A DNA stretch of 64,000 nt from contig NZ_JASJOU010000008.1 in NCBI RefSeq assembly GCF_030068605.1, positions 1 to 64,000 on the forward strand, in the 5' to 3' direction. Under the pieces are notes generated by a model, which did no database searches, was not told the DNA's origin, and saw only the letters and a list, made by a program, of their open reading frames with translations. Positions 9,990 through 26,178 of the stretch are shown here, piece by piece. The first letter of the stretch is position 1; each line of letters begins with the position of its first letter. The DNA comes from Xanthocytophaga agilis. GTDB taxonomy: Bacteria > Bacteroidota > Bacteroidia > Cytophagales > 172606-1. Both the position numbers and the translations under genes were made by a program.

Positions 9990-12900
9990 TCAAGCTGATA
10001 AAATAGTTTCATTGTACTTTTCAGATTTCAGACTTTGTTTAATAAAATCATAGATAACCACCTCATTCAATCTTGGATGGGTAATCAAAATCCTATTGCA
10101 GCACATATGTAAAATGCTCTCAATTATTCTACATTTCCTATCATAGGATAAGGCTTGGATAATAGAATAAAACTCGCTACTTTGAGCATCTCTATCAGTT
10201 ATAATCTGCTTAATCTGACTCATCAAAATGGGAGTTTGTTCTTTTAGAAACTGTTTAATTTGTCTAAAGTTATTGGCGAGAATCTTTTTATGCTCAAGAA
10301 CAGAAGTCAACTGAAATTCATTTTTAAAGTTTGAAGATAAATTTTCTATAAAGTTGCTCTTTTCCTCAGGGGACAGCCCCACTTTTTCCAGTATTCCCTG
10401 ACAGCTAAGAAGAGCTACTATAATCCTATGTCTATGTGAATTTAAAAGTTTGACAGTATTTAGAGTTTCCAGTATGGCAATAGTACAATAGCTATCCATG
10501 TAAAAAAAGTGTTCGACCTGATCATAATCCAGTGTATAGCGATCTATTTCTCTTTTATAACTATCCAATTGGATAGACCAGATACTTCCAGCTTGAATAT
10601 AATTTTTAAGCTTTTTATTGACCAGATCTAGAATCCGGAAGATTTTGCTTTTTACTTTTACTTTTAATCTTAAACGTATATGTGAATCAGGAGCATTGAA
10701 CTTAACAAAAAAGTATCCTTCGACAATTTTCTGACTAATAAGACTTATTAATACTTTTTGTAATGAATGTACAATGATCTCATCCATTAATTGGAAATTG
10801 CAAAAGATATTAACTTGTAACCACTGACTTCCTGGAAAAAAATCAGTTACAATTTGTCTATTTATAGTTATATCAGCAGCATTAGCAGATAGGTTTAATT
10901 CGTTTTTGTTTAATTTAAGTGGTAATACAAATTCATGACTGTACTTTCCGGTTTCATTAGTAATGAAACACTGATTAGCGCTAAACAAACACTCTTCAAT
11001 CTTAAGAGATCTGTTTTTAGATAATTCTTCCCAGAAAAGATCAAAACAAACTTTACTCTCCAGATTAATATATAAATTGAGATCATTGCCACCTTTGATC
11101 AAAAACTGTTGTGGAATCTTCACTTCTGAGAAATAATTTTGGACTTTTGTATAAGATGGTAATTGTTTATTTTCAAAGAGGTGATCAAAATCAGACAACT
11201 CAATTATCCATGACTCTTTAGAGAGGATACACTTTTTATATACTACTCTTGGAAGATGTTTAAAACCTCCCATTAAATTTCCCCAATTCCAATATAACCC
11301 GTATAGACCATCCTGAAAGTGCAAATCTGAAAGGAAATAGTAAAAATTAAGTGCCTGATAGGTATAGTTATGAGCACTAGTCAGACGAGGCTTAACAATT
11401 CTATTTAACGATCTGGATTTTAAGATAACTTTATTATCACTACAATAGACAGTTAGATCATCAATGTTCAACTTAATAGCTGAACTATCTGAATTATTGA
11501 GAAGTGGTATTTCAAATTTTCGAAAATCAGTTTTGGTAACCACATTACTTGCCTTCCCAGAAGGAGCATGAATGATTTCAGCAAAGATAATATCATTTAT
11601 TCCCTCTTCTTCAGCATTAATACATTTTTGCAATTTTTGATCCAGATCTGAGTCCAGATTTGCGAATCTGCTTAATAGATTAATACTTGAAGGGCCTCCT
11701 GTATAGATATAATCAATTAAAAAATTGCCTTTATCAATTGCATCTTCATCTTGTGCAATCAATCGAAAACAACTAAACAAAGAAGAAGGAAGGTCCTTAG
11801 CTGATGTTTCTGCACTCTTAAACTCAGATAGATCTTCTTCGCTTAAAACCAGCATGCTTTTCTCAAAAGCATCTTTAGACTTCAGGTATTTATTAAATAA
11901 AAACAGATCCCAACTATTTAACATAAACTGATCAGCTGAATTATTGCTTAAACCTGCTAATCCTTTTAAAAACTCATTACCACCTGTATCAAGATGACTT
12001 TCCACTGGATACCCAATACCAGTTATTGTATCCAAAACATCTGCTAGATTTACTTCCTTACTACCATACCTTTCTCTGAACTTTTGTATAAAGGTTCGTA
12101 GTCTCGAGTTGGAACTATCTGCTTTTAATTTATTCAGATAATGGATACAATCATAAATCTCTGTCAATACATTCTTGTTAATTTGCTTTTCCTTGAAAGA
12201 TAAATACATATCTGAATGGAGCAAATCCACATTAGAGTAGTACTTATCTAAATTTTTCAGATATTTACCAATCTGAATATAGGAATGGAAACCCTGTCCG
12301 ATTTTGGTTTGGTTCAGTCTTTCAATCTCAGCTATTGCTAAAAGCAAATCCTGATTATCTGCTTGCTGTTTGAGTCTCTTTTGAAAGTCTTTGGTAATAT
12401 TATCAGATAATATATCTGGATAAAAGTCTGGAAGCAAGAGATAATTATCAATTAAATGAAAGATAAACTTGTCAACATCCTGTTCTGATTGAGTGACTCT
12501 ATTAAGTATAAACTTCCGAATTTGAGAAAAATTTTTTTTTCTTTTAGTGTACTTAATTATACTCTCAATCAAACTTGTGTTTTCTACTGTCATTTTAGAA
12601 AATGGATAATTATCTCCTTTTATATAATGAAGACCTCTAAAATTCTTATAGATTGTATTATTGCTAAAAAATTTCCCCTTAAACAGAAATTCTTTATCTG
12701 TGTATTTCCTTTTTAAATATTGAGTTATAAAATCAAAATTTAGGCGAACCTTTTTTTTATGCTTATCGCTACGGTTTAACTCAATTTTAGTTGAATCTGC
12801 AATATTTATAGATGCCAAACCTGCAGAAACTCCATAGGGTGTGCTTCGGTGAGAAATTCTTAGATAATATTTAAGAAGTTTGTTGACAACTTTTTTATCT

Positions 12901-13184
12901 GAAGCAGATAAATCTTGCTTCCGGTGCATGAGCTTTTCATAGGCATGAAATAATTCCTGTGATGAAAGCAAAAGAGCTTCTTTAAATAAGTCATTATTTA
13001 GAAAGTTTAATAACTCCAAATCTGAGTGGATATCTGCTAAACAAGATGTATACTGTTGAGTATTACCATTTCTGGAATAAATAGGCAGCAAAGGTGTCCG
13101 GATTATAATAAAACCAAAATCTTCGATCATACATTTATTGTTAAAAATTAGTGATTCAAATGAATTTAAAAATTCAACATTCAT
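9990..13184 (-). CDS. lanB: Class I lanthipeptide dehydratase (LanB)
   Basis: 1064 residues, the usual length of a full LanB. The N-terminal glutamylation domain (about 1-780) contains the family motif RSTPYG at 113-118. The C-terminal elimination (SpaB_C) domain starts near residue 785 (WLQVNIFCNF...) and ends with a helical region. LanB uses glutamyl-tRNA to glutamylate Ser/Thr of the precursor core, then eliminates glutamate to give dehydroalanine and dehydrobutyrine. The two halves are in one chain here, unlike the split dehydratases of pinensin-type Bacteroidota lanthipeptides. It lies 171 bp behind lanC on the same strand. The gene is strikingly AT-rich. The family assignment is firm; the substrate is inferred to be the precursor at 25939. 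Confidence 0.93.
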   Translation of the reverse strand: MNVEFLNSFESLIFNNKCMIEDFGFIIIRTPLLPIYSRNGNTQQYTSCLADIHSDLELLNFLNNDLFKEALLLSSQELFHAYEKLMHRKQDLSASDKKVVNKLLKYYLRISHRSTPYGVSAGLASINIADSTKIELNRSDKHKKKVRLNFDFITQYLKRKYTDKEFLFKGKFFSNNTIYKNFRGLHYIKGDNYPFSKMTVENTSLIESIIKYTKRKKNFSQIRKFILNRVTQSEQDVDKFIFHLIDNYLLLPDFYPDILSDNITKDFQKRLKQQADNQDLLLAIAEIERLNQTKIGQGFHSYIQIGKYLKNLDKYYSNVDLLHSDMYLSFKEKQINKNVLTEIYDCIHYLNKLKADSSNSRLRTFIQKFRERYGSKEVNLADVLDTITGIGYPVESHLDTGGNEFLKGLAGLSNNSADQFMLNSWDLFLFNKYLKSKDAFEKSMLVLSEEDLSEFKSAETSAKDLPSSLFSCFRLIAQDEDAIDKGNFLIDYIYTGGPSSINLLSRFANLDSDLDQKLQKCINAEEEGINDIIFAEIIHAPSGKASNVVTKTDFRKFEIPLLNNSDSSAIKLNIDDLTVYCSDNKVILKSRSLNRIVKPRLTSAHNYTYQALNFYYFLSDLHFQDGLYGLYWNWGNLMGGFKHLPRVVYKKCILSKESWIIELSDFDHLFENKQLPSYTKVQNYFSEVKIPQQFLIKGGNDLNLYINLESKVCFDLFWEELSKNRSLKIEECLFSANQCFITNETGKYSHEFVLPLKLNKNELNLSANAADITINRQIVTDFFPGSQWLQVNIFCNFQLMDEIIVHSLQKVLISLISQKIVEGYFFVKFNAPDSHIRLRLKVKVKSKIFRILDLVNKKLKNYIQAGSIWSIQLDSYKREIDRYTLDYDQVEHFFYMDSYCTIAILETLNTVKLLNSHRHRIIVALLSCQGILEKVGLSPEEKSNFIENLSSNFKNEFQLTSVLEHKKILANNFRQIKQFLKEQTPILMSQIKQIITDRDAQSSEFYSIIQALSYDRKCRIIESILHMCCNRILITHPRLNEVVIYDFIKQSLKSEKYNETILSA

Positions 13185-13355
13185 TGTATAGGTTAACAGT
13201 AGCTGTGAAACCCTATCTCATATAAATTTTGAAGACTTTTTATTGTATGCATCCTAAAGAAGAATTCTTATATCCAAACTATATATCCATCAGTCCATAA
13301 ACGAAGAAGACATACAATTGACCTATGTATGCATTAGTAGCTACACTCTTTCAGC

Positions 13356-14597
13356 TTACTCTGCAACTACTGTAGATAGGGTATGGAAATTATTTAACAA
13401 CATTAAATTATGCCATTTGGGTGATAGAAAAGATTGATCTTGAAATGCAACCAGACAAGCTCCCGACTTTCCATAAAGAAGGGAAGTATCATCAATAATC
13501 TTTTTTAAATCCAGGTTTTGGAGAGTACCTTCTTGTAATGTTTTAATTGTCTTTAAAGAACTATAAAGTAATCTCAGATAATAGAAATACTTACTGGAGA
13601 AAGTTCTTTCATGAGTAAATTCATAGAAAAGTCTATAAAAAAGACACACACCTGCCAATCCATGACAAATACCAATGTCATAAAATCCCTCTATATACTG
13701 AATCTGGGAGTCAGTGATGTTCCGTTTGCAAGAATGTAAAGCAATCTCTAATGCACTATAATAAATTTCATTATCTTTTAGCACTTGTGCTGCAACAAAA
13801 AGAGAGTAGGCAACTCCTAAATCTCCATAACACCACCCAAGTCTACTGGTTTGCTCGCTTATGTTTGCATTCGAGAAAGATGACAAACCGTTTTGTTGTT
13901 TTTTGGAAAGTAACCAGTTAACAGCCCCTCTAATCATTTGTAAAGAAACCATTTTTCGTGTATTTACCTGTACATCAACATATATATCTCCGGCAAGGTA
14001 AAAAAAACACAAGGTACAAATGATACTGGGTATACCATGAGCTAATCCATAATTTTGAATTTTCTCTCCCTTAAATTTCTTATCGTAGTAGTAGTCATAC
14101 CAAAAATTCCCGTTACTGTCCCTTTCCGCTATCTGTTCAATACCTTCAACAATTGTAGTAACCACTTTCGTGTTATTTAACCGCAGGTACGGATAATCTA
14201 AAAATACCAGAGCTTTCCCTATCACGCCATACAACAAATCATAATCTCTATTCTCAATATCAACAGAGACAGACTTTTCTAATTGTCGAGAAATATAATT
14301 CATCAATTCTTCTTTTGCTGATGTCATTTGCAGCAACTTATGCTGTTTCAAATATTCTACCAGCCATAATATACCAGCAAATCCGCTTGCCAATGAAGAA
14401 TCCTGACGTGAGATAACAGTCGGTATATCATCAAAATAGCTGGTGATTAATAAATCCAGTCGATCTTTGAATTGACTATTCTTCGTTCTATGATATAAAG
14501 AGGCGTTTAGTAAAATGGGCCCACCTAGTCCTATATATAAAGAACAGGAAGAGTATGATGGAGTGGCCTGAGCTGTATCACATATGAGTTGATTCAA
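13356..14597 (-). CDS. lanC: Lanthionine synthetase cyclase (LanC)
   Basis: 413 residues with the LanC alpha-toroid repeats. Zinc ligands are visible: Cys256 in LGWCYGDLG and Cys311-His312 in ICHGLAG. LanC catalyses Michael addition of Cys thiols to dehydro-residues to form (methyl)lanthionine rings. With three Cys in the precursor core, up to three rings are possible. It is the first gene of a lanC-lanB pair and faces the glycosyltransferase gene across a 133-bp region that holds a long palindrome. All key residues are present, so it should be active. Confidence 0.93.
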   Translation of the reverse strand: MNQLICDTAQATPSYSSCSLYIGLGGPILLNASLYHRTKNSQFKDRLDLLITSYFDDIPTVISRQDSSLASGFAGILWLVEYLKQHKLLQMTSAKEELMNYISRQLEKSVSVDIENRDYDLLYGVIGKALVFLDYPYLRLNNTKVVTTIVEGIEQIAERDSNGNFWYDYYYDKKFKGEKIQNYGLAHGIPSIICTLCFFYLAGDIYVDVQVNTRKMVSLQMIRGAVNWLLSKKQQNGLSSFSNANISEQTSRLGWCYGDLGVAYSLFVAAQVLKDNEIYYSALEIALHSCKRNITDSQIQYIEGFYDIGICHGLAGVCLFYRLFYEFTHERTFSSKYFYYLRLLYSSLKTIKTLQEGTLQNLDLKKIIDDTSLLYGKSGACLVAFQDQSFLSPKWHNLMLLNNFHTLSTVVAE

Positions 14598-14652
14598 AAT
14601 ACGCTACAATCTTTATGTTTAACATTAAATATACTGCAATATAAATATTTAA

Positions 14653-14684
14653 TAAAATATAACGAATTAATTCATTATATTTTA
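14653..14684. promoter_or_regulatory. 32-bp palindromic operator between lanC and the glycosyltransferase
   Basis: Almost perfect dyad symmetry: 15 of 16 pairs match, the exception being C14663/A14674. The right arm contains TTCATTATATTT (14671-14682), exactly the 12-mer found in both arms of the inverted repeat before the precursor gene (25847-25858 and 25895-25906, AAATATAATGAA). It lies in the divergent promoter region, so one regulator probably controls both transcripts. Confidence 0.6.
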
Positions 14685-14730
14685 TTTTTTATTCAATATA
14701 TTTACAAAAAACATATAAAGGTATGTCAAT

Positions 14731-15678
14731 ATGCAAATTGCAATTACTACAACAGTAAAATCATGTTCAGCAGAAACGCTGGCCAACTTTGCCAGTTATC
14801 ATTTAAGTATCGGATTTGATTATATTTTCTTTTTTTTTGATGATGAAAATGAAATCCCTCCAGATGTTACGATCAAAGAGGAAAGAATTATTATTATCAA
14901 AAATGATGACCTATTACAGCGCTCATGGCAAAAGACTAAGCTAAGACATATGTTAGAATATACGTCTAGTGATTTAATTGCGCGTCAAGTACTGAATATA
15001 GAGGCAGCTATTAATCTTTCGCTTCAGTTAAATGTCTCCTGGATTTTGCATATTGATGTAGATGAACTATTTTATGCACCTGCCTATAACAATGTTAAAG
15101 ATCATTTTAAGTATATGGAACAACAACATATACAATCTATTAACTATGTGAATTATGAGGCTATCTGTGAAAAAACCTATATTGATAATTATTACAAGGA
15201 AGTTACGCTTTTTAAAAGAAATCCACTCACTTTAACTTTAAAGCAGAAAGATCTGATTCAATGTCACTATCCAGGAGGGATGAAAAATTTCTTCTTGTTT
15301 TATGGTAATGGTAAGCCTGCCGGTAAAGTATCTGCCAGACTTACACCAAACGGGCCTCATTTTTTTAAGAATGCTATTCAATTTTATCCAAATACCGGAC
15401 CAATTATATTGCATTATCCTGTTTGCGGCTTTGAAAATTTTTATAACAAATATCATACACTTGGATTCTTTCCTGATCTATGGCTAGGTGAATACTCTAT
15501 TGAGCAACAGTTGCCCTTCCATATTCGCGCCAGAAATATAATCCATTCTCAAACAAGACAGCAGGCAGAAAAATTTTATAACCATGAGGTAGTTATTAGT
15601 GATCAGAAACTTATTGAACAGTTACTTATAAATGAAATTTTTTGTAGAATTCATAAGCCTTCACAAGCTTTTAAATAA
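14731..15678 (+). CDS. Glycosyltransferase (GT2/GT92-like, Glyco_tranf_2_4 type)
   Basis: 315 residues without membrane segment or signal. An N-terminal GT-A pattern (MQIAITTTVKSC...) is followed by an acidic loop, and HIDVDELF carries the metal-binding Asp109-x-Asp111. The family transfers sugars from nucleotide donors; many are in capsule or surface-glycan loci. Here it is in a lanthipeptide island and is divergent from lanC, so a role in decorating the peptide, for example on the hydroxylated Pro/Thr tail, is inferred. The sugar donor cannot be read from sequence. An out-of-frame ATG lies 8 bp upstream; the start at 14731 is the one giving the GT fold. Confidence 0.8.
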   Translation: MQIAITTTVKSCSAETLANFASYHLSIGFDYIFFFFDDENEIPPDVTIKEERIIIIKNDDLLQRSWQKTKLRHMLEYTSSDLIARQVLNIEAAINLSLQLNVSWILHIDVDELFYAPAYNNVKDHFKYMEQQHIQSINYVNYEAICEKTYIDNYYKEVTLFKRNPLTLTLKQKDLIQCHYPGGMKNFFLFYGNGKPAGKVSARLTPNGPHFFKNAIQFYPNTGPIILHYPVCGFENFYNKYHTLGFFPDLWLGEYSIEQQLPFHIRARNIIHSQTRQQAEKFYNHEVVISDQKLIEQLLINEIFCRIHKPSQAFK

Positions 15679-15761
15679 AGTAAATTTGAACTTCACAACA
15701 AGATATATATTTAATTTATTGAGGAGTAACAAACTTTTGGCTGCTTAAATTAATAACCATC

Positions 15762-15830
15762 AGTAGCAACGGTTTTCTACTGCTTTTTGTAGACGCTTTT
15801 TCAGTTACAAAAAGCAGCTCTATTGCTACT
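15762..15830 (+). terminator. Two-part stem-loop after the glycosyltransferase
   Basis: A 12-bp perfect inner stem (15780-15791 with 15806-15817) is capped by a 14-nt loop and continued outwards by an 8-bp stem (AGTAGCAA, 15762-15769, with 15823-15830) after an internal loop. About 85 nt after the stop. It separates the glycosyltransferase from the peptidase transcript and may be a terminator or a structured RNA end. Confidence 0.55.
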
Positions 15831-15859
15831 TATTATTATATTTAAATTAAGTAGCGTAC

Positions 15860-15890
15860 TTGTTTACTCTTCTGAATGAAACTATATTTG
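15860..15890 (+). promoter_or_regulatory. Consensus promoter for the HExxH peptidase gene
   Basis: TTG (15860-15862), 20-nt spacer, TATATTTG (15883-15890). A transcript would start near 15897, leaving a 5' leader of about 195 nt. The leader opens with a 10-bp stem-loop (15911-15920 with 15947-15956). Confidence 0.55.
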
Positions 15891-16091
15891 TATTCAAGAT
15901 AATGAAATACCTTAACAAAAAATTACACGACAGGTGTTATAAAGTATTTTGTTAAGTGTTATTAGCCAACCTGTAGATTAGCTACCAGAGCTGTAAAAGT
16001 AAATCCAGGTCCCTGCCGGCTGTTAAGCGTAAATATACTCAAGTCCTTATATAGGCTTATTTTTATTATTTTTTATCTAAATATTCCTCAT

Positions 16092-17300
16092 ATGAAAAGT
16101 CCATGTATTGAAAAAAAACATTATTTATTTAATTTCATCTTATTGATATATATGGGTTTATCAGGTATGCAGGTATACAGTCAAAAGAAGGATAAAAACA
16201 CCTCTGTATCTACCAAAGAAAATAATCTACAGAGCTCAAGCTCCAATAAAACCTTATCTCAATTACCTACTGACTTTATCGATGTATCTGCTGTGAAAGC
16301 TTACTTTGTCATTGCAGATCGATTTAGAGCTCATCAGGAACCAACTGTACAAGAATGGACATCTTTGTTTACTTCGCCTATTCACACAATGATGATAACA
16401 GCAGGTGTCTTAGATACAACAAAGTTTAAGCATGACATGCAACTAATCTACACTGAGGGTATGGCCAAAAACAAAACAGAAGCAAAGAATGATGCAAAAA
16501 ATGTACAAACTGATTCTGATTTAGCTCATCATTTGAAGTATCAAAAGCTTGAGAAGCAACTTCTTGCCCATATTTCCTTTTTGGAGGCATCTTCTATACA
16601 ACAAAATATCTTTAGTTACCTACAACCTTTTCTTCCTGCTCGTTTACTGATAAAAGACAAACTACCTAAGCAATATTATGTCTTTTATGGTAATGAAGAT
16701 GCAACTGCAGGCCCAGGAATGGTCATCAACGACTTATTACTTTCTTACAAAATTGATAGATATAAATTGGGTATTTTATCAGCACATGAAACCTTTCATG
16801 CCATTGTTTCAGAAGCCTTTACAAACTTATTAAAGAACGATTTTTCCAATCAGGACCCTAATGCGATTCTATTGTATTTTTTGAGCAATGTATCACAAGA
16901 AGGGGTTGCAGACCTGATAGACAAACCAGCACTAACACAGTCAAATTCTCCTGTATTAAAGGAAATGGAATCCTTGACTGAAAATGAAATTATGCTTAGT
17001 AAAAGCTATATTACTAAGCTTGATAGCTTAATTCAAGCCAAGAGTACCAATATTGATTATAATTTATTATTTCAAAAATTTAGCAAACACGGCGGACACA
17101 TTCCAGGAAGGGTTATGGGGCAAGCTATCAAACAGGCAGGCCTACTTCCTACCTTAATCCATTCAATAGAGGATCCCGTTTTATTCTTTGAACTTTATAA
17201 TCAGGCTGTTCAAAAAAACAAATCCGAATTACCATCTTTATCAGTAACAAGTCTATCATACTTAAGAGAGATTAGAGAGCGTTATCTTAAGCAAATATGA
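16092..17300 (+). CDS. Secreted HExxH zinc metallopeptidase (DUF5700-like)
   Basis: 402 residues with a signal peptide (hydrophobic stretch about 11-28, ending near VYSQ) and a low-complexity Ser/Lys stretch. The motif HETFH at 232-236 is a HExxH zinc site; Glu270 in SQEGVADL is a likely third ligand, the gluzincin arrangement. The fold resembles the DUF5700 'putative zinc-dependent peptidase' family of the Bacteroidota. It lies between the glycosyltransferase and the regulator, but has its own promoter. A role in trimming or destroying exported peptide, or in processing an envelope target, is inference. Confidence 0.65.
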   Translation: MKSPCIEKKHYLFNFILLIYMGLSGMQVYSQKKDKNTSVSTKENNLQSSSSNKTLSQLPTDFIDVSAVKAYFVIADRFRAHQEPTVQEWTSLFTSPIHTMMITAGVLDTTKFKHDMQLIYTEGMAKNKTEAKNDAKNVQTDSDLAHHLKYQKLEKQLLAHISFLEASSIQQNIFSYLQPFLPARLLIKDKLPKQYYVFYGNEDATAGPGMVINDLLLSYKIDRYKLGILSAHETFHAIVSEAFTNLLKNDFSNQDPNAILLYFLSNVSQEGVADLIDKPALTQSNSPVLKEMESLTENEIMLSKSYITKLDSLIQAKSTNIDYNLLFQKFSKHGGHIPGRVMGQAIKQAGLLPTLIHSIEDPVLFFELYNQAVQKNKSELPSLSVTSLSYLREIRERYLKQI

Positions 17301-17374
17301 TCTGTTTTGATAATAATACTGAAATAGGTATCATCATCTTTAAAATGTAGCCTTACTTTGAGATTATCTTGAGA

Positions 17375-17387
17375 AAGGTTATCACCT
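17375..17387. repeat. AAGGT-N4-ACCT inverted repeat, copy 2
   Basis: AAGGTTATCACCT, the reverse-oriented match to 9657-9670. It sits between the converging peptidase and regulator genes. Confidence 0.35.
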
Positions 17388-17415
17388 AACCACAAAAGTT
17401 AATCAGAATGCTCAA

Positions 17416-17952
17416 TCAGGCAGACTGCAGATTATTCAAGTCTATATTGTTACGATTCTTGTTATCGGTAATATTTTTGTAATGTTGAACTATATCTTTC
17501 AGATCCTTATTAGTTGAAGTTAGAACTTCAATTGAGTTCTTATAGGCATCAATGGTTAATCCTTGGTAGTTGATCATGCTTTCCAGAAACTGAATCTTAT
17601 GTTTAAGTGTTTCAACGATTTCTTGTTGTTTTTTCTCCTGGTTAAAATCCTGATCTGTTTTAGGTACAAGATGATTCTGTTCGGAAGCGTTTTTATTCTC
17701 AATTACAAGCATTTTTCCTTTACCTTGTAAGAGCCAAAGCAAATTCAGATCTGGATAAGAATCAGTAATCTGAAGTAGTTTTTCTATACTAAAATTTTTA
17801 CCGTGAACAATATTGGAAATCTGGGCACCTGAAATCCGGGTACTTCTTCCAAACTCGCTCATCTTTATATTCTTAAAAGTTAAATATTCTTTTAAGCGTT
17901 GTCCAACTAATCTCAGTTCCAGTTCCATACTATCTACATTAATGCTGTCCAT
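17416..17952 (-). CDS. XRE-family transcriptional regulator with C-terminal coiled coil
   Basis: 178 residues. A helix-turn-helix at about 17-62 (VGQRLKEYL...ISGAQISNIVHG) is followed by the Bacteroidota signature LNLLWLLQGKGKML (69-82), then a linker and a long coiled coil (about 104-170). Many proteins of this build are phage-type or island repressors. It is the only classical DNA-binding regulator in the island, so it is the best candidate to bind the palindromes at 14653, 18027 and 25845. A 26-bp palindrome lies about 75-100 bp upstream of its start. Confidence 0.85.
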   Translation of the reverse strand: MDSINVDSMELELRLVGQRLKEYLTFKNIKMSEFGRSTRISGAQISNIVHGKNFSIEKLLQITDSYPDLNLLWLLQGKGKMLVIENKNASEQNHLVPKTDQDFNQEKKQQEIVETLKHKIQFLESMINYQGLTIDAYKNSIEVLTSTNKDLKDIVQHYKNITDNKNRNNIDLNNLQSA

Positions 17953-18026
17953 AATTTACCAAAATAATTTAGTGAGGCTTCATATTTATATTATATCTCT
18001 GTATATAGATTGTATTGAAAAACCAT

Positions 18027-18052
18027 TTTAGCTGAATTTAAATTCAACTAAA
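18027..18052. promoter_or_regulatory. 26-bp palindrome upstream of the XRE regulator
   Basis: Dyad TTTAGCTGAATTT followed by its near-complement (12 of 13 pairs; mismatch C18032/A18047). Position fits an autoregulatory operator. Its sequence differs from the operator-like repeats at 14653 and 25845. Confidence 0.45.
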
Positions 18053-18639
18053 GCAAAATTATATTAAAAAATGATTCATTCAAATTTGTCTGTTGTATGT
18101 TTACATTATATTATTTTTTAATGTAGAATACCAAAAGTACTATAGCTGTAAGACTGACAGGAATCTATTGGGTTTATTATGAATTTCTGTTCAAATATAT
18201 TTATAAGATATAGTATCTTCAGGCCAACCTTATATATCAGAATGAATGTGCCTATATGATATTATTTTTATCAAAGATGAGATTCTTTTATCATATATCT
18301 GAAGCTAAAAAAATGATATCAGAACTAGTATAATAGGAGATGTATAGACACAAAGATAGTAGTAATTACAAGCTATATTTTCCAATACCGCCTGTTATTG
18401 CTATCCAGCATTAAAGTAGCTATCTAAACTGAGGAAATACTTATCTTGTTCGTGCAGATAATTCTTATGAGATCTGTTTGTAATTTAATCATGTAATACA
18501 ACATGTTTTCCAGACTTTCTCATAAAGCGTTTAAGATGTGATTGCCTGATTGTAATTATAAGTATCAGAACAATTCAAATTGTGGTAGTAATGTCTTTTT
18601 TATAAATCCCATTGTTACTATCGGGGATTAAAGAAACCA
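18053..18639. other. Gene-free spacer between regulator and HlyD gene
   Basis: About 590 bp of AT-rich DNA with no frame above 20 codons worth calling. A weak hairpin (18605-18610 with 18624-18629) lies just after the HlyD stop. A 7-bp dyad is at 18102-18125. No second precursor peptide with a double-glycine leader was found. Confidence 0.4.
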
Positions 18640-19935
18640 TTATGGAGTATGAAACATTTGTTCAAGTCCAACAATAAATTTCTCTATAAGGCGCTTATCA
18701 CGAGTTATAATTTCAGCAGAGGCAGTCATCCCTTGTTTAAAAACCAGTGTTTTATGATAAGATGTAAATAACCCTTTAGGTAAACGAACTCTGGCAAAAA
18801 ATGTATTGTCACTTGAAGGAATCTGAGAGATAAAATCAACTTCCCCCTCTACTAAACCAAATTCCTGAAATGGATAAGCTTCAAACTTTATAAGCACTTT
18901 CTGGCCTTTTTTTACTTTTCCAAAATTACTCTGAGGAATCTTAACCATTCCCAACTCTCCAGAAGTGGAATTTCCAATATAAAACAATTCCTGACCTTCC
19001 TTAACCATTTGATCCTGCTGAAGCCAGTCAGATACTAAAATTACTCCATCCATAGGAGCCTGTATTATATATTGGCTTTTCCAAATAGTAATCTTGCTTT
19101 TTAAAATTTCAATAGATTGAATAATATTGGTTTTATGTTCAGCAATTACTTTATCCAACTCAAGTAGCTCCTTATATATACTGGCTTGTTTTACATTGTT
19201 ATCAATCAGTTGAGTTTGTAGTTGCAAGAGAGGAACTCTTTTAGCTAAGTACTTACTTTCTTCTCTGTTAAGTTCCAGGTGGGTAATAACTTTTTCTGAT
19301 GCAAGTTTTTTCTGAACCATGAACTCAGTCTGTGCTAGCTCTGAATCTTTCTCAAGAAGTACTACCTGATCTTGCAGATTCTGTTGTGTTCTCGTAAGAA
19401 ACTGAAGATCCGTCTTTAAAAAGAGTCTTTTTTTCTCATAGTATCGATTGGAAAATAGAGAAAGGTATTGATTATATGCCTGATTAAATAGTTTAAACTC
19501 AGACTGGATCTCTCCCAGATTTTTAAAATTTATCTCTTCAAGTCTGGCTAGCTGATCCGGATTAGCAGAGATAATAATGGTATACAAAGAATCCAATTTT
19601 TTATCTAATTCAAGTATTAAAGTATGTTCGGCAGTACTTTCTAGAAAAGCCAAAATATCTCCTTTGTGAACCTTATCATTTTCATTAACCAGCAATTTTA
19701 CCAATCTGTTGTTATTTTTGGCAGTTACTGGTTTAGCAGCATTAGCAGATGTAAGTTGAAAGGGTACTATAACAATGTCTGGATACTTTATAACTACAGA
19801 CAACAGGAGAATGACCAGTAATAATATAAAAAAAATACTATTACCTGATCGAACAATTATGCCAGGTACTTTGCTTACAATCTCTTCAATTTCATAACTA
19901 TGAATTTGAGAGTTCTGCTGTGGATAGGGTGTCAT
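18640..19935 (-). CDS. HlyD-family membrane fusion protein (peptide export adaptor)
   Basis: 431 residues: a cytoplasmic N-terminus, one membrane anchor at about 31-50, a barrel-sandwich/lipoyl-like half (LLVNENDKVHKGDILAF), a long coiled-coil hairpin (about 100-290), the second lipoyl half (QAPMDGVILVSDWLQQDQMV), and a C-terminal beta-barrel. This is the adaptor that couples a C39-type peptidase/ABC exporter to the outer membrane in Gram-negative bacteria. It lies 34 bp downstream of the exporter gene, so co-transcription is nearly certain. An outer-membrane TolC partner is not in the window. Confidence 0.9.
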   Translation of the reverse strand: MTPYPQQNSQIHSYEIEEIVSKVPGIIVRSGNSIFFILLLVILLLSVVIKYPDIVIVPFQLTSANAAKPVTAKNNNRLVKLLVNENDKVHKGDILAFLESTAEHTLILELDKKLDSLYTIIISANPDQLARLEEINFKNLGEIQSEFKLFNQAYNQYLSLFSNRYYEKKRLFLKTDLQFLTRTQQNLQDQVVLLEKDSELAQTEFMVQKKLASEKVITHLELNREESKYLAKRVPLLQLQTQLIDNNVKQASIYKELLELDKVIAEHKTNIIQSIEILKSKITIWKSQYIIQAPMDGVILVSDWLQQDQMVKEGQELFYIGNSTSGELGMVKIPQSNFGKVKKGQKVLIKFEAYPFQEFGLVEGEVDFISQIPSSDNTFFARVRLPKGLFTSYHKTLVFKQGMTASAEIITRDKRLIEKFIVGLEQMFHTP

Positions 19936-19969
19936 ATTTACTAACTTAAGAATCCATAGGATGAAACAA

Positions 19970-22207
19970 TCAATCGTCTAGTTCAAGTTGGTTCTTTATC
20001 AGTTCATAATATTTCCCTTTTGCTTTAATAAGTTCATTGTGGGTACCTTCTTCAACTAAAAAACCCTGATTTAAGACAACTATCTTATCTGCATTTTTTA
20101 CTGTACTTAATCGATGGGCCACTACAATGACAGTTTTACCGGAAAAGAAACCTTCAAGGTTTTGTGTAATAATCTTTTCATTGGTAGCATCGAGAGCATT
20201 CGTCGCTTCATCAAAAAAAATAAAGTCAGGATCTTTGTAAATAGCCCGTGCAATTAATACACGTTGCCGTTGTCCTTGGCTCAGCCCCACCCCTTCAGTT
20301 CCAATTTTAGTATTATATGACATTGCCAGACTTTCAACAAATTCTTGCAAATTTGCTTTTTGTATAGCCTCCAACAAACGTTCAAAATCAATATTTTCTT
20401 CCCCTACAGCAATGTTGCGAGCGATAGTATCTGAAAAAATATATCCATCCTGCATAACTACTCCACATTTACTTCGCCATAAACTAGGACTGAGCCTTTT
20501 TAAGTTAGTATTACTTACATGAATAGAACCTTTCTCAGGATTATAAAACTTTAAAAGTAATTTTAACAAAGTTGTCTTTCCACTCCCGCTCATACCTACG
20601 ATTGCAGTCTTCTTTCCTTCTTCAATCGTTAGGTTTATATTCTGAAGAACCAACCTATCTGTCCCTTCATAGGTAAAACAGATGTCTTTCAAGGTAACAG
20701 TTCTGCCTTGGGGTAAGAAATTTATCAGGTTAGCAGATATAGGTTCCTCATCAGGTAAGGTATGTATCTCATTCATTCGTTCAAGACTAATTTTAGCGTC
20801 CTGCAGATTTTGGAAGAATTGAATTAGCAAATAAACTGGTGAATTAAGCATTCCAGTCATATATTGAATAGCAAGCATTCCTCCCAATGTAAGTTGCCCA
20901 TCTAGTACCAATTTGGCCGAAAGAAAAGTGATGATAATATTTTTGCATTCATTAATCAAAAATCCACCCATACTCTGATATTGAGATAGAGTTAAACTCT
21001 TCACATTTAAGTAAAATGTTTTAGCCTGAACCCGTTCCCATTCCCACCGTTTTTGTAACTCAGCATTTGCTAGCTTAATTTCCTGCATACCCGCAATCAT
21101 CTGAATCAAAAGGCTTTGATTTTGCGAACCAATATCAAATCTTCTTGTATCCAGATTTCTGCGTTGTTTGAAGAAAATAGTAATCCAAAACCCATATAAA
21201 AGGCTCCCAACACAAAAGACTACAAAAATCAGCCAATTATAATAAGCTAAAGCAAAGCTAAATAAGATAAGATTAATAAATGAAAAGAGAGTAGTCAGAG
21301 CTGTTCCTGTCAGAAATGACTCTACACGCTGATGATCGCCGATTCGCTGAATTGTATCTCCAAACATTTTTACATCAAAGTAAGACAGCGAAAGCCGCAT
21401 AAGTTTGGCTAAAAAATCCGAAAGCAAAGAGATATTGACTCTACTACTGATATGAAGCAGAATCCAGCTTCGGACAAAGTCTACAACTGTTCTTCCTGTA
21501 AGCAACGTCAGTTGAGCAGCTAAAACCAGATATATAAAATTAAGATTCTGTGTATTAAGACCGACATCAATGATTGATTGTGTTAAGAAAGGAAAAATCA
21601 ATTGTAGAATACTTCCAGATAAAATTCCTAAAAAAAGCTGGAACAATAACCGTTTATAAGCAAGTAAATATTTCAGGATATGATCAAAAATCAGGGCACT
21701 TCCGATTGGTTGGGGTTCATCCACATTGTCAAAAAAAACAGGTGTGGGTTCTAAAAGTAGAATAATACCTTCCTTTCTTTCATTATATGAATTATTTAAC
21801 CATTCTACTAGAAATTCATCCTTTGTATAGGTAAGTAATCCCCTTTCTGGATCGGCGACATATAACAGTTCACCAGATCGTTTCTTTGAGGGTAGAAAAA
21901 ACTTATCTTTTATTTTGTTAGTGACTTTATAAACTATAACAAAGTGGTTTTGCCTCCAGTGTACAATACATGGTAATGTAGCCTCTTTTACCAAACTATC
22001 ATACTCAATCCTTGCTCCTGTTGTTCTGAAACCTAATTTCTCTGCTGCTTTGCTGATATTTAGTAAAGACACTCCCTCTCTACCCAAATTGGAAATTTCT
22101 CTTAAGGACTGAAGTTTGTAGCTTTTGCCATAGTATTTTGCAATCATCTGCAGACATGTAGGGCCACAATCCATGTAATCATATTGCTTATAGAAAGGAA
22201 ATGCCAT
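19970..22207 (-). CDS. C39 peptidase-containing ABC transporter (double-glycine leader processing exporter)
   Basis: 745 residues. The N-terminal C39 peptidase (1-145) has an intact active site: Gln8, Cys14 in MDCGPTC, His88 in NHFVIV, Asp119 in VADPERG. A six-helix ABC transmembrane domain (about 165-480) is followed by the nucleotide-binding domain, with Walker A GMSGSGKTT, signature LSQGQRQR, Walker B FIFFDEATNALD and the His loop AHRLST. It cuts leaders after Gly-Gly and exports the core, which fits the KGG site of the precursor at 25939. In an operon with the HlyD adaptor. Confidence 0.95.
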   Translation of the reverse strand: MAFPFYKQYDYMDCGPTCLQMIAKYYGKSYKLQSLREISNLGREGVSLLNISKAAEKLGFRTTGARIEYDSLVKEATLPCIVHWRQNHFVIVYKVTNKIKDKFFLPSKKRSGELLYVADPERGLLTYTKDEFLVEWLNNSYNERKEGIILLLEPTPVFFDNVDEPQPIGSALIFDHILKYLLAYKRLLFQLFLGILSGSILQLIFPFLTQSIIDVGLNTQNLNFIYLVLAAQLTLLTGRTVVDFVRSWILLHISSRVNISLLSDFLAKLMRLSLSYFDVKMFGDTIQRIGDHQRVESFLTGTALTTLFSFINLILFSFALAYYNWLIFVVFCVGSLLYGFWITIFFKQRRNLDTRRFDIGSQNQSLLIQMIAGMQEIKLANAELQKRWEWERVQAKTFYLNVKSLTLSQYQSMGGFLINECKNIIITFLSAKLVLDGQLTLGGMLAIQYMTGMLNSPVYLLIQFFQNLQDAKISLERMNEIHTLPDEEPISANLINFLPQGRTVTLKDICFTYEGTDRLVLQNINLTIEEGKKTAIVGMSGSGKTTLLKLLLKFYNPEKGSIHVSNTNLKRLSPSLWRSKCGVVMQDGYIFSDTIARNIAVGEENIDFERLLEAIQKANLQEFVESLAMSYNTKIGTEGVGLSQGQRQRVLIARAIYKDPDFIFFDEATNALDATNEKIITQNLEGFFSGKTVIVVAHRLSTVKNADKIVVLNQGFLVEEGTHNELIKAKGKYYELIKNQLELDD

Positions 22208-22263
22208 CTGATCTCTTATTAAATAACCTTGTACTCATTATTTGTTTGTATATAACACTAACT

Positions 22264-24072
22264 CTATTGCACATCCACTGTATCAACAGTAGGACCACAG
22301 ATTACATGGGTTTTATTAGAAACCGATTCCTCTATTACTGGATTAGATTCATATATAAGATTAGCAGGCTGTATATCTGAAGGGTGTATATTCATGAAGA
22401 CATTCTTTACCAATTTCTCGTACAAAATCCCTTCAGCCCATACATAATTTACTTTTCCCCAACGTGTAGCACTATTTATGTCAGGAAAAAAGCCACTTCC
22501 CTTAAAATTAGCACTTGTGTTACAAAGTACAGGGATACCTGTTAATTTATAATAATGAGTCAATAAGCTGTACAACGTCTCATTATCCTGCCAGTTAACA
22601 GTCTGAAGACGAGCAGTTTGATCTGTATGGCAGATAGAAGGTATTCGCAGTTGCCACTCTTCGCTAACATGATGTTCAAATAGCATAAAAGGGTCACTTC
22701 CACCAGGCCTAAAAATGGTACTGGCTTTATCTTCCAGACAAACCGGAGCTATAGGCCTGTAAGATTCCCTGTATTTTATTTGATTCAATATATCTTTTAT
22801 AAATATAGATGAGGCACTACAGAGAATGCTGCGATTACCTAAAGCTCTTGGGCCCAGCTCCGCTCTGGACTGTAGAAAGATGACAGGTTCGCCTGTATCA
22901 TGTAGCAAGTGGGCTAGTTGTTCAAGTGTACAGTTTTTTTTCTCCCATCCTTCATAAGGCTTATTAACTAATAATTTTGGCCCTTTATATACATCCCAAT
23001 CAAGTTTAGGTGTATGCCAACTCAAACGGTCAGAATATTTTTTTGTATATAGCCATTCGCTACAGGCAGTACCAATGGCACTACCTGAATCGTTTGGAAA
23101 TGGGCATATCCATATCTTGTCAAAAAAGTTTGCAGATCGTAAAGCATTATTCCATTTTATATTTAGCGCAGCACCACCAGAATAACATAGGTTTTTAGAA
23201 GCCTGACTGGTTTTCATCAGAATCCTAGATAAATTATCAATGAGCATCTCTTGCAAAAATCCATGAAAAGAAGCCAATATATCCTCATCATAAAAATAGT
23301 GTTTTGACAGTTCCTCTCTGAAACGAGTAGTGAAATGATAAGGATATAGGGAAACGTTTTTGAGTTCCTCCTCACTGGCTGATTGATAAATATTATGAAA
23401 AAGCTTGATAAGGGTTGAATTCTGCTTACCAAATGCGGAGAATGCCATTACCTTTCCAGCAACAGATAATTCATCTTTAATTACATTTTCATTAATCTTG
23501 AATGGGCCAAAATGCTGCGAGAAGATAGAATAAATATTTACTCCCAATTGAAAAAGCTCATCTATATAGGTTATTTCCCAATTAGCCCCTGAAATAAAAT
23601 AGAGCTTGGGAAACATACCTCCATCCCATACCAAAACGTATGAATCTTCTCTGTCAGCAGCAAACGGACTGGTACAATAACAACTAAAAATATGGCCTGC
23701 TACATGTGAATAGCTCGTATACGAAAATATCTTGTTACCGATAGGCAGCCCTGTAAAACTATACCGATGAGAAACGCTATGTATACTGGTCTGCTGATAG
23801 GGAGCAACGGGCAGCTTAAAAGGTAGAGACAAATTTTTTGTCTGAATCTGAGCCAACTCTTCGCCTACCCATCCATCTACTACATACTGATCTATATCTT
23901 CTACTCTGTAGCCATTTTCATTAAGTATGTTTTCAATGAATGAAAGATCTTCAATTATTTTAAACCGATTGTTGTTATTAACTTTTTCAAGTTCAATACA
24001 AAATTTAAGTTCGTTGTTTTCAATTAAAGCAATTGAACTATCATGAGTTAGTTTAAGACCACAGATACGCAT
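22264..24072 (-). CDS. NodU/CmcH/TobZ-family carbamoyltransferase
   Basis: 602 residues. The N-terminal Kae1-like domain has His10-Asp11 in LTHDSS and the metal-binding pair His123/His127 in SYSHVAGHIF, here a variant of the HHxAHA motif. The C-terminal carbamoyltransferase domain has RAELGPRALGNRSIL. These enzymes make carbamoyl-AMP from carbamoyl phosphate and ATP and pass the carbamoyl group to a hydroxyl of a sugar or antibiotic. Here it is in the peptide-tailoring operon, 56 bp before the exporter gene. A likely target is a hydroxyl on a sugar, hydroxyproline, Ser or Thr of the modified peptide. The substrate is inferred. Confidence 0.88.
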   Translation of the reverse strand: MRICGLKLTHDSSIALIENNELKFCIELEKVNNNNRFKIIEDLSFIENILNENGYRVEDIDQYVVDGWVGEELAQIQTKNLSLPFKLPVAPYQQTSIHSVSHRYSFTGLPIGNKIFSYTSYSHVAGHIFSCYCTSPFAADREDSYVLVWDGGMFPKLYFISGANWEITYIDELFQLGVNIYSIFSQHFGPFKINENVIKDELSVAGKVMAFSAFGKQNSTLIKLFHNIYQSASEEELKNVSLYPYHFTTRFREELSKHYFYDEDILASFHGFLQEMLIDNLSRILMKTSQASKNLCYSGGAALNIKWNNALRSANFFDKIWICPFPNDSGSAIGTACSEWLYTKKYSDRLSWHTPKLDWDVYKGPKLLVNKPYEGWEKKNCTLEQLAHLLHDTGEPVIFLQSRAELGPRALGNRSILCSASSIFIKDILNQIKYRESYRPIAPVCLEDKASTIFRPGGSDPFMLFEHHVSEEWQLRIPSICHTDQTARLQTVNWQDNETLYSLLTHYYKLTGIPVLCNTSANFKGSGFFPDINSATRWGKVNYVWAEGILYEKLVKNVFMNIHPSDIQPANLIYESNPVIEESVSNKTHVICGPTVDTVDVQ

Positions 24073-24158
24073 ATGAGTAATGGTTTAGGCAGTTAGTTTG
24101 TAATTTTATATCACCTCTTTTTGTTCAGCCCTCTATCGATATCCATAATAGGATACGA

Positions 24159-25163
24159 TCATTGGAACGGAGAATTATTTACCCATAAGTTGCAAGCGTA
24201 TTTGACTCCCGTTTTAACAGGAAGACCAGCATGTGCAGAGTAAGGTATAATATTTTCATACTCATCCATATTCTGGAATACTACACAGCGGCCTGTTTTA
24301 GGGGTTATTCTGATTCCTAATTCGGGAAAGCTGGTTTCGCCACCTTCAAAGGTTTCATTCAGATAGATCAAAAAAGTGTGAGTGCGTCTAATATCTTTAT
24401 TAGAGTCAAAGTGATATTTAAATTCCTGTTTAGGGTGATATCTTACACATTGTAAAGATTCAAAATAGCTGAGATCTTTTTTTATCAGTTCTGATGCTTT
24501 TTGATAAATATGACAAAAAACTGGATCATTTCGACTTTCTATATAAGCACTGTAGCTGGTTCTGTGCATAGAAATTTCCTTGCCCTCTTTTCCTAACTTA
24601 CTCCGGTTAAATAGATCATTTTTCTGACTAGTCTCTATAATATATTCACTTTCTGCGTTTGTAAGGAAATCATCAATAATGTGCAGGGATTTTTTATAAT
24701 CACGTTTGGCTTTTTGTTCAGCTTGCTTGTTCTTCTTAAAAAATTCCTCTCCTGCAGTATTGTCAAAGTCTGGCACTAAAACGACTCCTGACCACTTTGC
24801 TTCAAACAAACTTACCGACTCACAACAGTGGCCCAATGACGGATGGATATACTTCACTTTGTCAGAAGTAACAAAGGTCACTACAACAAAGGTTGCGATG
24901 TTATCTTCCTTTAGATAAGCAATGATAGGTAGAGGTACTTGCTGCAAAGTAGCAGAATCCAGCTTACAACCAAGACCTTGAATATGCCATTCATTTAATA
25001 CTGTTACTAAATCACTTAACGAAATATTAGGAAAATTCGGGTTTGAGTAGAGTGCATTTCTAATTGTAAATCGTGTGACATTAACTTTTAATAATTCTAT
25101 TAGAGTAATTGCAGAATTAATTGTTTCATCAAAGTAAACAAAGTCGGGCAGGATAGTATTCAT
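24159..25163 (-). CDS. Prolyl-4-hydroxylase-type 2OG-Fe(II) oxygenase fused to a dead C39-like domain
   Basis: 334 residues in two parts. The N-terminal part (about 1-133) resembles the C39-peptidase-like domain found fused to vitamin-K-epoxide-reductase-type proteins in the Bacteroidota (LLKVNVT..., FPNISLSDLVTVLNEW, LPIIAYLKEDN, WSGVVLVPD). The catalytic Cys and His positions are absent, so it should not cut. The C-terminal part (about 155-334) is a P4H-type oxygenase with iron ligands His251-x-Asp253 and His311, and the 2-oxoglutarate-binding Lys321. P4H enzymes hydroxylate proline in Pro-rich sequences. The precursor has ten Pro in 20 residues. The dead C39 part may recognise the double-glycine leader and so direct the hydroxylase. 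Leader guidance is inference. Confidence 0.85.
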   Translation of the reverse strand: MNTILPDFVYFDETINSAITLIELLKVNVTRFTIRNALYSNPNFPNISLSDLVTVLNEWHIQGLGCKLDSATLQQVPLPIIAYLKEDNIATFVVVTFVTSDKVKYIHPSLGHCCESVSLFEAKWSGVVLVPDFDNTAGEEFFKKNKQAEQKAKRDYKKSLHIIDDFLTNAESEYIIETSQKNDLFNRSKLGKEGKEISMHRTSYSAYIESRNDPVFCHIYQKASELIKKDLSYFESLQCVRYHPKQEFKYHFDSNKDIRRTHTFLIYLNETFEGGETSFPELGIRITPKTGRCVVFQNMDEYENIIPYSAHAGLPVKTGVKYACNLWVNNSPFQ

Positions 25164-25292
25164 CTTAGCAGTCAGATTAAATTTGATATATTAAAATAAC
25201 TTGTTTCTTATCCTCCTTATATGATGTATCCGAATTTATCTCAATAAAAAGATCCTGTTCCCAAACGCTTATAAAACATCATATTTATATAA

Positions 25293-25832
25293 CTACATAA
25301 TTCTCTCTTTTATCATCTTTATTTGCCCTAAATGATTTAACTCATCTTCCATAATATGAAACAAACAATAATAGTTGTTTACCGGGCTACCAAATGGATA
25401 ACGTGTTTCAGAAAACAGCCATTGGTCATCCTTATATTTTAAACTTTCATAGGTTTTATTGCGAGTTTGCTCTAATATATTGATGTAGTAATTTAATTCA
25501 TGTCCATTAACGAGTCTTAGATACAACTCTCCACTTAATGATCCTTTCCAGAATTCTTTTTCATTAGGAGTAAGATCCCGAACTTCAAATACTACACATT
25601 GAAATAAGGTTTCTAATGCTGCTATATGTCTGAGTAGTATACCAATAGAGTTAGCCTTTGAGTCTATATAGAAGTCCAGTTCATATTGTGTTAATGCATG
25701 AATACAGGTTAATGTTGAATACCTAGAATACCTTAATAATGAGACAAGATTGCCAATGCATGGTGTATAACACCCATCTGGTGGCATTATATTAAATTTA
25801 GTAATAGTATACGTAACGTTTTCTTTATCCAT
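25293..25832 (-). CDS. DinB/YfiT-like (DUF664-type) protein
   Basis: 179 residues, a four-helix bundle pattern with three metal-binding His: His69 in SIGILLRHIAALE, His159 and His167 in HIMEDELNHLGQI. DinB-family proteins are divalent-metal proteins, several being thiol-dependent transferases or isomerases. It is the first gene of the tailoring/export operon and faces the precursor gene. Its chemical role here is unknown; a peptide-tailoring or thiol-related step is possible. Four Cys occur in the chain. Confidence 0.75.
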   Translation of the reverse strand: MDKENVTYTITKFNIMPPDGCYTPCIGNLVSLLRYSRYSTLTCIHALTQYELDFYIDSKANSIGILLRHIAALETLFQCVVFEVRDLTPNEKEFWKGSLSGELYLRLVNGHELNYYINILEQTRNKTYESLKYKDDQWLFSETRYPFGSPVNNYYCLFHIMEDELNHLGQIKMIKERIM

Positions 25833-25844
25833 TACTAAAGGTAT

Positions 25845-25908
25845 TTAAATATAATGAAAATTGCAAAATATATTAAAAATACTTTGTTTATATTTTCATT
25901 ATATTTAA
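25845..25908. promoter_or_regulatory. Inverted-repeat operator flanking the precursor promoter
   Basis: A 17-bp perfect inverted repeat (25845-25861 and 25892-25908) with 30-nt spacer. Both arms contain AAATATAATGAA, matching the palindrome at 14653-14684. The only promoter-like sequence before the precursor lies between the arms, so a protein bound to both could block it. It also covers the divergent start of the tailoring operon. Confidence 0.6.
25861..25886 (+). promoter_or_regulatory. Candidate promoter of the precursor gene
   Basis: TTG (25861-25863), 16-nt spacer, TACTTTG (25880-25886), one base short of TAnnTTTG. Start of transcription would be near 25893, 46 nt before the ATG. Confidence 0.35.
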
Positions 25909-25938
25909 TTTTAAAAACACCATTTTAACAACATATCT

Positions 25939-26178
25939 ATGAAAAAACGTTCTCTCTCAGAGCTTTCTCTGAACATTTTATCAGAAAGCGAATTGTCTTC
26001 TGTAAAAGGAGGCCAGTCAGATTCGGCAGGTTTAACCTCCAGATGCTGGGGAAATACCTCAGGATGTTGGGGTGCAAGTGTAACTACTATCGGCGTTCAG
26101 TGCCAACCCGCACCTGCACCCACGCCTACACCGACACCTACAACGCCTACACCGACACCATCACCTTGGTCTGCTTAA
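25939..26178 (+). CDS. lanA: Lanthipeptide precursor with double-glycine leader, CWG repeats and Pro/Thr tail
   Basis: 79 residues. Leader 1-25 (MKKRSLSELSLNILSESELS...) is amphipathic, ends in KGG (23-25), and fits the C39 exporter. Core 26-79: Ser/Thr at 27, 29, 33, 34, 40, 41, 47, 49, 50; Cys at 36, 43, 55; two units Cys-Trp-Gly (36-38 and 43-45), each followed by Ser/Thr. Residues 57-76 are alternating Pro with Ala/Thr/Ser (PAPAPTPTPTPTTPTPTPSP), then WSA. LanB/LanC would act on the first part; the tail fits prolyl hydroxylation and O-glycosylation. The tail DNA is a degenerate ACC/CCT/ACG repeat, richer in GC than the surroundings. A strong terminator follows. A second frame over the 3' end is a shadow. 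Function as lanthipeptide is inferred from neighbours. Confidence 0.85.
   Translation: MKKRSLSELSLNILSESELSSVKGGQSDSAGLTSRCWGNTSGCWGASVTTIGVQCQPAPAPTPTPTPTTPTPTPSPWSA

Follow-up and report, generated by a model that had tools for sequence, protein, structure and literature searches.

A class I lanthipeptide locus of Xanthocytophaga agilis with a prolyl-4-hydroxylase that carries a predicted C39-like leader dock

The closest described relatives of the locus reported here are the pinensins and other class I lanthipeptides of Bacteroidota, which are encoded with a LanB dehydratase, a LanC cyclase, a C39 peptidase exporter and precursors with an LxLxKx5L-type, double-glycine (GG) leader (PMC7268733, in excerpt, as are all articles cited here). 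We analysed 64,000 nucleotides of Xanthocytophaga agilis (assembly GCF_030068605.1, contig NZ_JASJOU010000008.1, positions 1 to 64,000; hereafter the window). Positions 9990-26178 hold class I lanthipeptide genes together with genes for tailoring enzymes, and the LanB, LanC, exporter and leader type are those of the described relatives. This island differs from its described relatives by an added fusion of a C39-like domain to a prolyl-4-hydroxylase (P4H), by a glycosyltransferase (GT) and a carbamoyltransferase (CT), by a Pro/Thr tail on the precursor and by Ile in place of Lys in the leader motif. Alpha-ketoglutarate oxygenases and GTs are on record in lanthipeptide clusters (PMC7268733); those oxygenases belong to PF03171, whereas that of the island is of the PF13640 P4H type with a C39-like domain. 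Among decorated lanthipeptides, NAI-107 has a di-hydroxylated Pro, NAI-112 and cacaoidin are glycosylated, and the word 'carbamoyl' does not occur in the covered text of the source (PMC10373908). These products differ from the one proposed here, as NAI-107 is hydroxylated by a P450 and the sugars of NAI-112 and cacaoidin sit on Trp and Tyr.

In plants and algae, hydroxyproline is subsequently glycosylated. Algal and plant P4Hs act on Ser-Pro and Thr-Pro repeats and share their fold with the island enzyme, whose closest solved structure is algal; the island P4H differs in being bacterial, hypothetically guided by a leader, and directed at a short secreted peptide. Leader docking is otherwise the function of the recognition elements (RREs) of ribosomally synthesized and post-translationally modified peptides (RiPPs), which are PqqD-like winged helices; docking by the island domain is predicted, and this domain matches Peptidase_C39 instead. 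RREs fused to CTs and GTs have been reported (PMC12710340), and degenerate C39-like domains recruit substrates without cutting them in toxin exporters and in ABC transporters of type I secretion systems, HlyB being one example (PMC6363468, PMC8277102). The HlyB-type domain is part of a transporter and HlyA lacks a GG leader, whereas the island domain is fused to a biosynthetic enzyme beside a GG-leader precursor. The CT shares the PF02543 and PF16861 domain pair with NodU, TobZ and GdmN, and two RiPP precedents exist: NodU-like StdF carbamoylates a Lys amine (PMC13174530) and CgnI works in crocagin (PMC10070186), where an amine target is our own reading. Neither crocagin nor the std product is a lanthipeptide, and StdF is fused to a protease domain (PMC10070186, PMC13174530). 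PF03171 oxygenases, transporter C39-like domains and RRE fusions to CTs and GTs speak against full novelty. Among the hits listed for the search terms used, and in the excerpted open-licence literature, we found neither a lanthipeptide associated with a P4H-type hydroxylase nor a RiPP tailoring enzyme that carries a C39-like domain.

We found that the fusion gene (24159-25163, minus strand) encodes an N-terminal C39-like domain (PF03412, 40.1 bits, E 4e-10; E of about 1e-7 for its profile against C39 domains in the PDB) followed by a P4H domain (PF13640, 56.8 bits). The catalytic Cys and His of the C39-like domain are replaced in all ten P4H fusions collected, the one in the window included. 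Both residues are present in eight of nine exporter C39 domains, and the exporter of the window retains Cys14, His88 and Asp119. In the P4H domain, His251, Asp253, His311 and Lys321 are kept in 10/10 fusions; we take the first three to be the HxD...H iron ligands and Lys321 to bind 2-oxoglutarate. The structure model of the fusion is confident (pLDDT 85.7), and its P4H half is closest to the algal P4H 3gze, a structure that includes a (Ser-Pro)5 peptide (Z 24.7, 180 residues, rmsd 2.5). Since catalysis is lost yet the domain is kept in every fusion, a binding role fits. The preliminary description of this locus had named the fusion without interpreting it; the degenerate C39 part is probably the means by which the enzyme finds its substrate. 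Judged from sequence, the C39-like domain probably docks GG leaders, and we consider it likely, with still better confidence, that the P4H acts on core prolines of the precursor.

A tree of 24 C39 domains separates nine exporters from 15 fusions (ten P4H, four of a vitamin K epoxide reductase (VKOR) type and one GT) by a branch with 100/100 support; it gives no firm order within the fusions, where several branches are long and many end branches exceed 1 change per site. In the numbering used here, L denotes fetched loci and G genomes, G000 being that of the window. The VKOR-thioredoxin-type proteins with an N-terminal C39-like domain lie at L028:9276-10904, L035:12591-14318, L036:4708-6318 and L124:8280-9911, identified by Pfam in L028 and L035 and by similarity in L036 and L124, and they neighbour GG-leader peptides, LanB or grasp-with-spasm genes. 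Control locus L036 had been flagged as a P4H fusion through an overlong alignment of 22% identity, and we rejected it, its best match being a VKOR-type protein (27% over 541 residues). At L027:9660-11174 (the same as L042), a C39-like domain is fused straight to a GT in a protein of 504 residues, with no clear precursor close by. One exporter, L122:7257-9461, is the exception among the nine in that its own C39 domain lacks both Cys and His; the cluster around it has a split LanB (650 and 277 residues). Control loci L101, L102 and L104 have C39-domain matches and no P4H.

Full-length fusions occur in 4/291 genomes of the order, namely G000 (9.77 Mb), G082 (two), G059 and G234. In a draw of 394 genomes from the phylum, a fusion profile at E<=1e-25 matched one genome besides the window, in the P4H part only; fusions could be overlooked in this draw because at most five candidates per genome were scored. 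Targeted searches added G692, G678 and G675 from 36 genomes of the genus of G059, and G710 and G728 (frames of 331 and 329 residues) from 148 genomes of the family of G234, which gives ten fusion loci; G082 and G059 are metagenome bins, the former with an estimated 7% contamination. In the two other genomes of the same genus that were searched, one of them only 72% complete, neither the full fusion nor the precursor nor a close LanB turned up. Viral contigs gave 11 pattern stretches for the P4H fusion, none a relative. In plasmids, 19 records match the fusion, 15 of them listed, and none is counted as covering 80% of it (the top one prints 80%); the first two are a 2-oxoglutarate dioxygenase (Thioalkalivibrio) and a plain P4H (Aureibacter), and the annotation displayed for them names no RiPP gene.

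The fusion is found with several RiPP classes. Four of its loci (the window, L024, L025, L122) are LanB/LanC clusters. In L119, L120 and L121 its neighbours are radical-SAM genes and likely precursors, and the first two of these loci also have a LanB/radical-SAM module close by. Locus L039 is a grasp-with-spasm (graspetide) locus (TIGR04192, 302 bits; TIGR04193, 334 bits). This cluster of Chryseolinea sp. H1M3-3 (L039/L124) has the C39-P4H, two GTs and a precursor ending PDSYPVDDTPPGPIPA. In L026, the fusion lies beside a metallo-beta-lactamase-fold protein and a 396-residue protein that weakly matches an HExxH hydroxylase (16 bits, cut-off 40); a GG-leader peptide with the core ELADCHQLLPKGTVIITTPTTPTTCHPH stands beside these two proteins (L026:6391-9494). 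No RiPP gene was recognised in the fusion locus L023.

The precursor gene of the island (25939-26178, plus strand) encodes 79 residues: a 25-residue GG leader, a 30-residue Ser/Thr/Cys core with Ser and Thr upstream of its three Cys, and, after the last Cys, a 24-residue Pro/Thr tail (26104-26175, plus strand) with 10 Pro, 7 Thr and 2 Ser. The tail had been called nearly pure Pro/Thr and without known parallel; it is Pro/Thr-rich, the first wording being slightly generous at 17/24 residues, and it is less singular than supposed, as Pro-rich tails occur in other fusion loci. The mean per-locus Pro fraction of cores was 0.134 across six fusion loci and 0.028 across 14 control loci with LanB (p 0.001, or 0.0025 when the window is left out). 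The loci compared are few and partly related, and the fusion loci span several RiPP classes while the controls are all LanB loci. One rule was applied to both groups (GG leader, at least two Cys in the core, not within a larger open reading frame) and gave candidates in 6/10 fusion loci and 14/44 control loci; controls L066 and L067 have their two precursors in common, and L081 resembles L084.

The rule left out two precursors of L024, whose cores end SPSPG and SPAPVPV and which failed it probably because large antisense open reading frames overlap them. Also left out were L121, which has no GG and a Pro-rich core (the peptide adjoining its fusion ends DSCPPVVTKPQPPCKPPDEMAY), L122, which has no GG and one Pro, and L023, which has no candidate. 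The peptides of the LanB/radical-SAM module in L119 and L120 begin TPSTPG or TPTTPG and, having no Cys, also fall outside the rule. Within G082, the precursors adjoining the P4H on C345 end CSPSPG and CSPAPVPV, and those on C325, where no P4H fusion was found, end CSPQEVQQ, CNPQEVQQ, CVPYEVQQ and CSPQTISDSPQ.

The GT (14731-15678, plus strand; GT2-type, PF13704 34.2 bits, cut-off 27.5) recurs with the fusion. At E<=1e-8, GT homologues occur in 3/291 genomes, all among the four with the full fusion (chance 7e-5 without the window). In a scan keeping 500 targets per open reading frame, the fetched stretch held the GT in 6/10 fusion loci vs 0/44 control LanB loci; the five besides the window are L024, L025, L039, L119 and L120. 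There the P4H and GT adjoin (L024, L025), are separated by one small gene (L119, L120) or lie 4 kb apart (L039). The identities of the two enzymes co-vary across loci (Mantel r 0.79, p 0.0056, n=6, the p value leaning on the close pair L119/L120). A wider scan with the GT profile (one genome per species, 84,980 species) returned at least 23 loci and was incomplete, as the Spirosoma-genus GTs of L119 and L120 were not among them; the P4H fusion was present in the fetched DNA of L039, L046 (the same as L024) and L047 (the same as L025), and L042 is the locus with the direct fusion of C39-like domain and GT. A second GT2-type gene (PF00535) adjoins the GT in L119 and L120, and L039 has an alpha-1,4-GT-like gene. 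The GT had no match in plasmids or among PDB sequences, and its AlphaFold model, built from four sequences, was poor (pLDDT 46.7) and was not used. We lean towards the view that the GT adds a sugar to this peptide.

The CT (22264-24072, minus strand; PF02543 218.2 bits, PF16861 152.3 bits) lies between the P4H and the exporter, and its PDB relatives are TobZ, GdmN and the decarbamoylnovobiocin CT. Its score against the NodU equivalog NF041651 is 633.5 bits, under the cut-off of 1000, and on that ground we rejected a NodU nodulation locus. The preliminary description had proposed a neighbourhood search for LanB, C39-P4H and CT together; we found the CT near a fusion in the window only, with none in the fetched DNA of the other nine loci, and so rejected it as a usual partner of the P4H. 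Among the 291 genomes, CT relatives at >=47% identity are G082:C182, G082:C208 and G226:C14. The first two adjoin genes for Condensation and AMP-binding domains and hence lie in nonribosomal peptide synthetase (NRPS) clusters; G226:C14 has a gene for a CmlA-type diiron hydroxylase nearby. Tailoring genes that keep other partners elsewhere had been named as evidence against the proposed decoration, a pattern that the CT approaches. Hence, the carbamate step is the weakest of the three, and the chance that the CT acts on this peptide is about even. In L040 (Agaribacillus aureus), a contig of 17.5 kb, a CT cut by the contig end (25-1206) and a GT relative (9992-10954) lie about 9 kb apart; asparagine synthase, ABC and radical-SAM genes separate or flank the two, and there is no P4H.

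The complete class I set and the three tailoring genes that had been described for the island are all present: LanB, LanC, GT, HlyD, C39 exporter, CT, P4H and precursor were confirmed at the coordinates given here, the enzymes and exporter genes by Pfam matches. LanB (9990-13184, minus strand) is a full-length dehydratase with glutamylation and elimination domains (PF04738 360.6 bits, PF14028 155.8 bits, both nearly full length); across 28 other genomes, including two from the same genus, none of its matches at E<=1e-60 exceeds 29% identity, and the precursor was not found in those genomes. LanC (13356-14597, minus strand, with a TTG start in the open reading frame listing; PF05147 116.7 bits) contains the motifs WCYG and ICHG, which we take to be its Cys/Cys/His zinc ligands. 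The HlyD-type adaptor (18640-19935, minus strand; PF16576 35.6 bits; TIGR01843 105.5 bits, under the cut-off of 208.65) and the C39 peptidase ABC exporter (19970-22207, minus strand; PF03412 102 bits, with PF00005 and PF00664) complete the set. The P4H, CT, ABC and HlyD genes are consecutive, with gaps of 86 (P4H-CT), 56 (CT-ABC) and 34 (ABC-HlyD) bases, and hence would form one operon; GT and LanC are divergent with 133 bases between them. The precursor leader matches the Bacteroidetes class I motif LxLxKx5L plus GG (PMC7268733), with Ile replacing Lys. Directly 3' of the precursor gene is an intrinsic terminator (26209-26242, plus strand; a 15-pair stem and a T-run).

We give even weight to a class I lanthipeptide cluster with a decoration cassette in which leader-docked hydroxylation is followed by glycosylation and then carbamoylation. 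LanB would bind the GG leader and dehydrate Ser and Thr of the core, and LanC would close the rings. The degenerate C39 domain of the P4H would then hold the GG leader uncut and offer the core to the hydroxylase, which would hydroxylate prolines, here those of the Pro/Thr tail. The GT would place a sugar on the new hydroxyl or on a neighbouring Thr or Ser, and the CT would carbamoylate that sugar, the peptide being a less likely target. The intact C39 domain of the exporter would bind the leader last, cut at GG and release the product. The preliminary description had proposed this order of hydroxylase, glycosyltransferase and carbamate; the first two steps gain from the recurrence of P4H with GT in five other loci beside RiPP genes and from the Pro-rich cores that accompany the P4H, and the carbamoyl step stays weak.

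The newest element, which goes beyond that description, is the proposed portable leader-docked cassette. Tentatively, and at somewhat less than even chance, we propose that the inactive C39 domain is a portable leader dock in Bacteroidota, analogous to the RRE and shuffled onto P4H, GT and VKOR-thioredoxin proteins, and that one cassette of hydroxylation and then glycosylation serves lanthipeptides, graspetides and radical-SAM peptides, with a carbamoylated, plant-extensin-like glycan tail in this island. If so, a protease that cut GG leaders became a reader of GG leaders that was reused on decorating enzymes, which would explain how a single hydroxylase serves several RiPP classes. Alongside the RRE, the domain would then allow modified peptides of Bacteroidota to be searched for irrespective of their class, and it would offer a route to proline-hydroxylated, glycosylated peptides in bacteria.

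The P4H and GT might instead act independently, the former on Pro or another core residue and the latter directly on Thr or Ser of the tail, with the CT on a peptide hydroxyl or the N-terminus and not on a sugar. The tail offers seven Thr and two Ser among its prolines, RiPP CT precedents exist in StdF (Lys amine, PMC13174530) and CgnI (PMC10070186), and the GT is absent from the fetched stretch in 4/10 fusion loci; we nevertheless hold independent action to be unlikely, as GT homologues in the 291-genome sample are confined to C39-P4H genomes and the P4H and GT identities co-vary. It is less likely still that the CT, alone or with the GT, is merely located in the island and serves another product, for example a polysaccharide or a metabolite of NRPS type. 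The NRPS and CmlA-type neighbours of the closest CT relatives, the single fusion locus with a CT, the many GT relatives from other phyla around which the query set used recognised no RiPP genes, and a generic gene of the NAD-dependent epimerase family that borders the island on the right (29177-30067) would agree with such a role. Against it, the CT lies mid-operon between P4H and exporter, and an NRPS gene was recognised in 0/10 scanned island proteins. Equally improbable, to our mind, is a C39-like domain that is a structural or regulatory relic and not a leader dock: its sequence is very divergent and its leader-binding role is a prediction, but it is kept N-terminally on three unrelated kinds of enzyme (P4H, GT and VKOR-thioredoxin type), GG-leader peptides or RiPP enzymes are encoded close to most of these, and its retention in 10/10 fusions after loss of catalysis fits binding.

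Several observations weigh against the ordered, leader-docked decoration of this precursor. LanB and the precursor are 12 kb apart and on opposite strands, the precursor scores under the cut-off of TIGR04149 (22.6 bits, E 7e-5; cut-off 25), and its leader has no match to the class I leader model NF038153, which an L024 precursor matches. P4H and GT are 8.5 kb apart on opposite strands in the window, four fusion loci have no GT in the fetched stretch, and 19/23 loci of the wide GT scan have neither P4H nor a C39-like domain in the fetched DNA, some of them on short contigs. The Pro fraction of the L119 cores is a modest 0.06, and the Pro comparison, beyond the mixed and partly related loci behind it, used a stricter rule set post hoc after a first rule had yielded spurious open reading frames. 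The C39-like fold rests on sequence profiles and a confident model; the structure search barely probed this part, which no row listed for the fusion model covered. The restriction of the CT to one fusion locus and its relatives beside Condensation and AMP-binding genes count on the same side.

Three further genes lie within the island: a DUF5700 putative peptidase (16092-17300, plus strand; PF18958 167 bits) whose cluster membership is doubtful, an HTH regulator (17416-17952, minus strand; PF12844 27.4 bits, under the cut-off of 30.2), and a DinB/mycothiol-transferase-like gene divergent to the precursor (25293-25832, minus strand; PF04978 41.1 bits). None recurs in the other fetched loci (0/87), and hence they are probably incidental; we rejected them as cluster members. 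G+C content is 30-37% in the 2-kb windows between 8 and 28 kb; of the 18 windows to the right of these, 14 have 37-45%. The genome has two more LanB loci, G000:C11 158633-161737 and G000:C15 88320-91313 (L037 and L038), and the P4H fusion and GT were not found in the 20 kb fetched for each. The roughly 3 kb that follow the precursor on the right (26250-29170) contain short open frames only, the scanned one (27056-27292) without a Pfam match. Just beyond, the NAD-dependent epimerase/dehydratase-family gene mentioned above may have a link to sugar supply.

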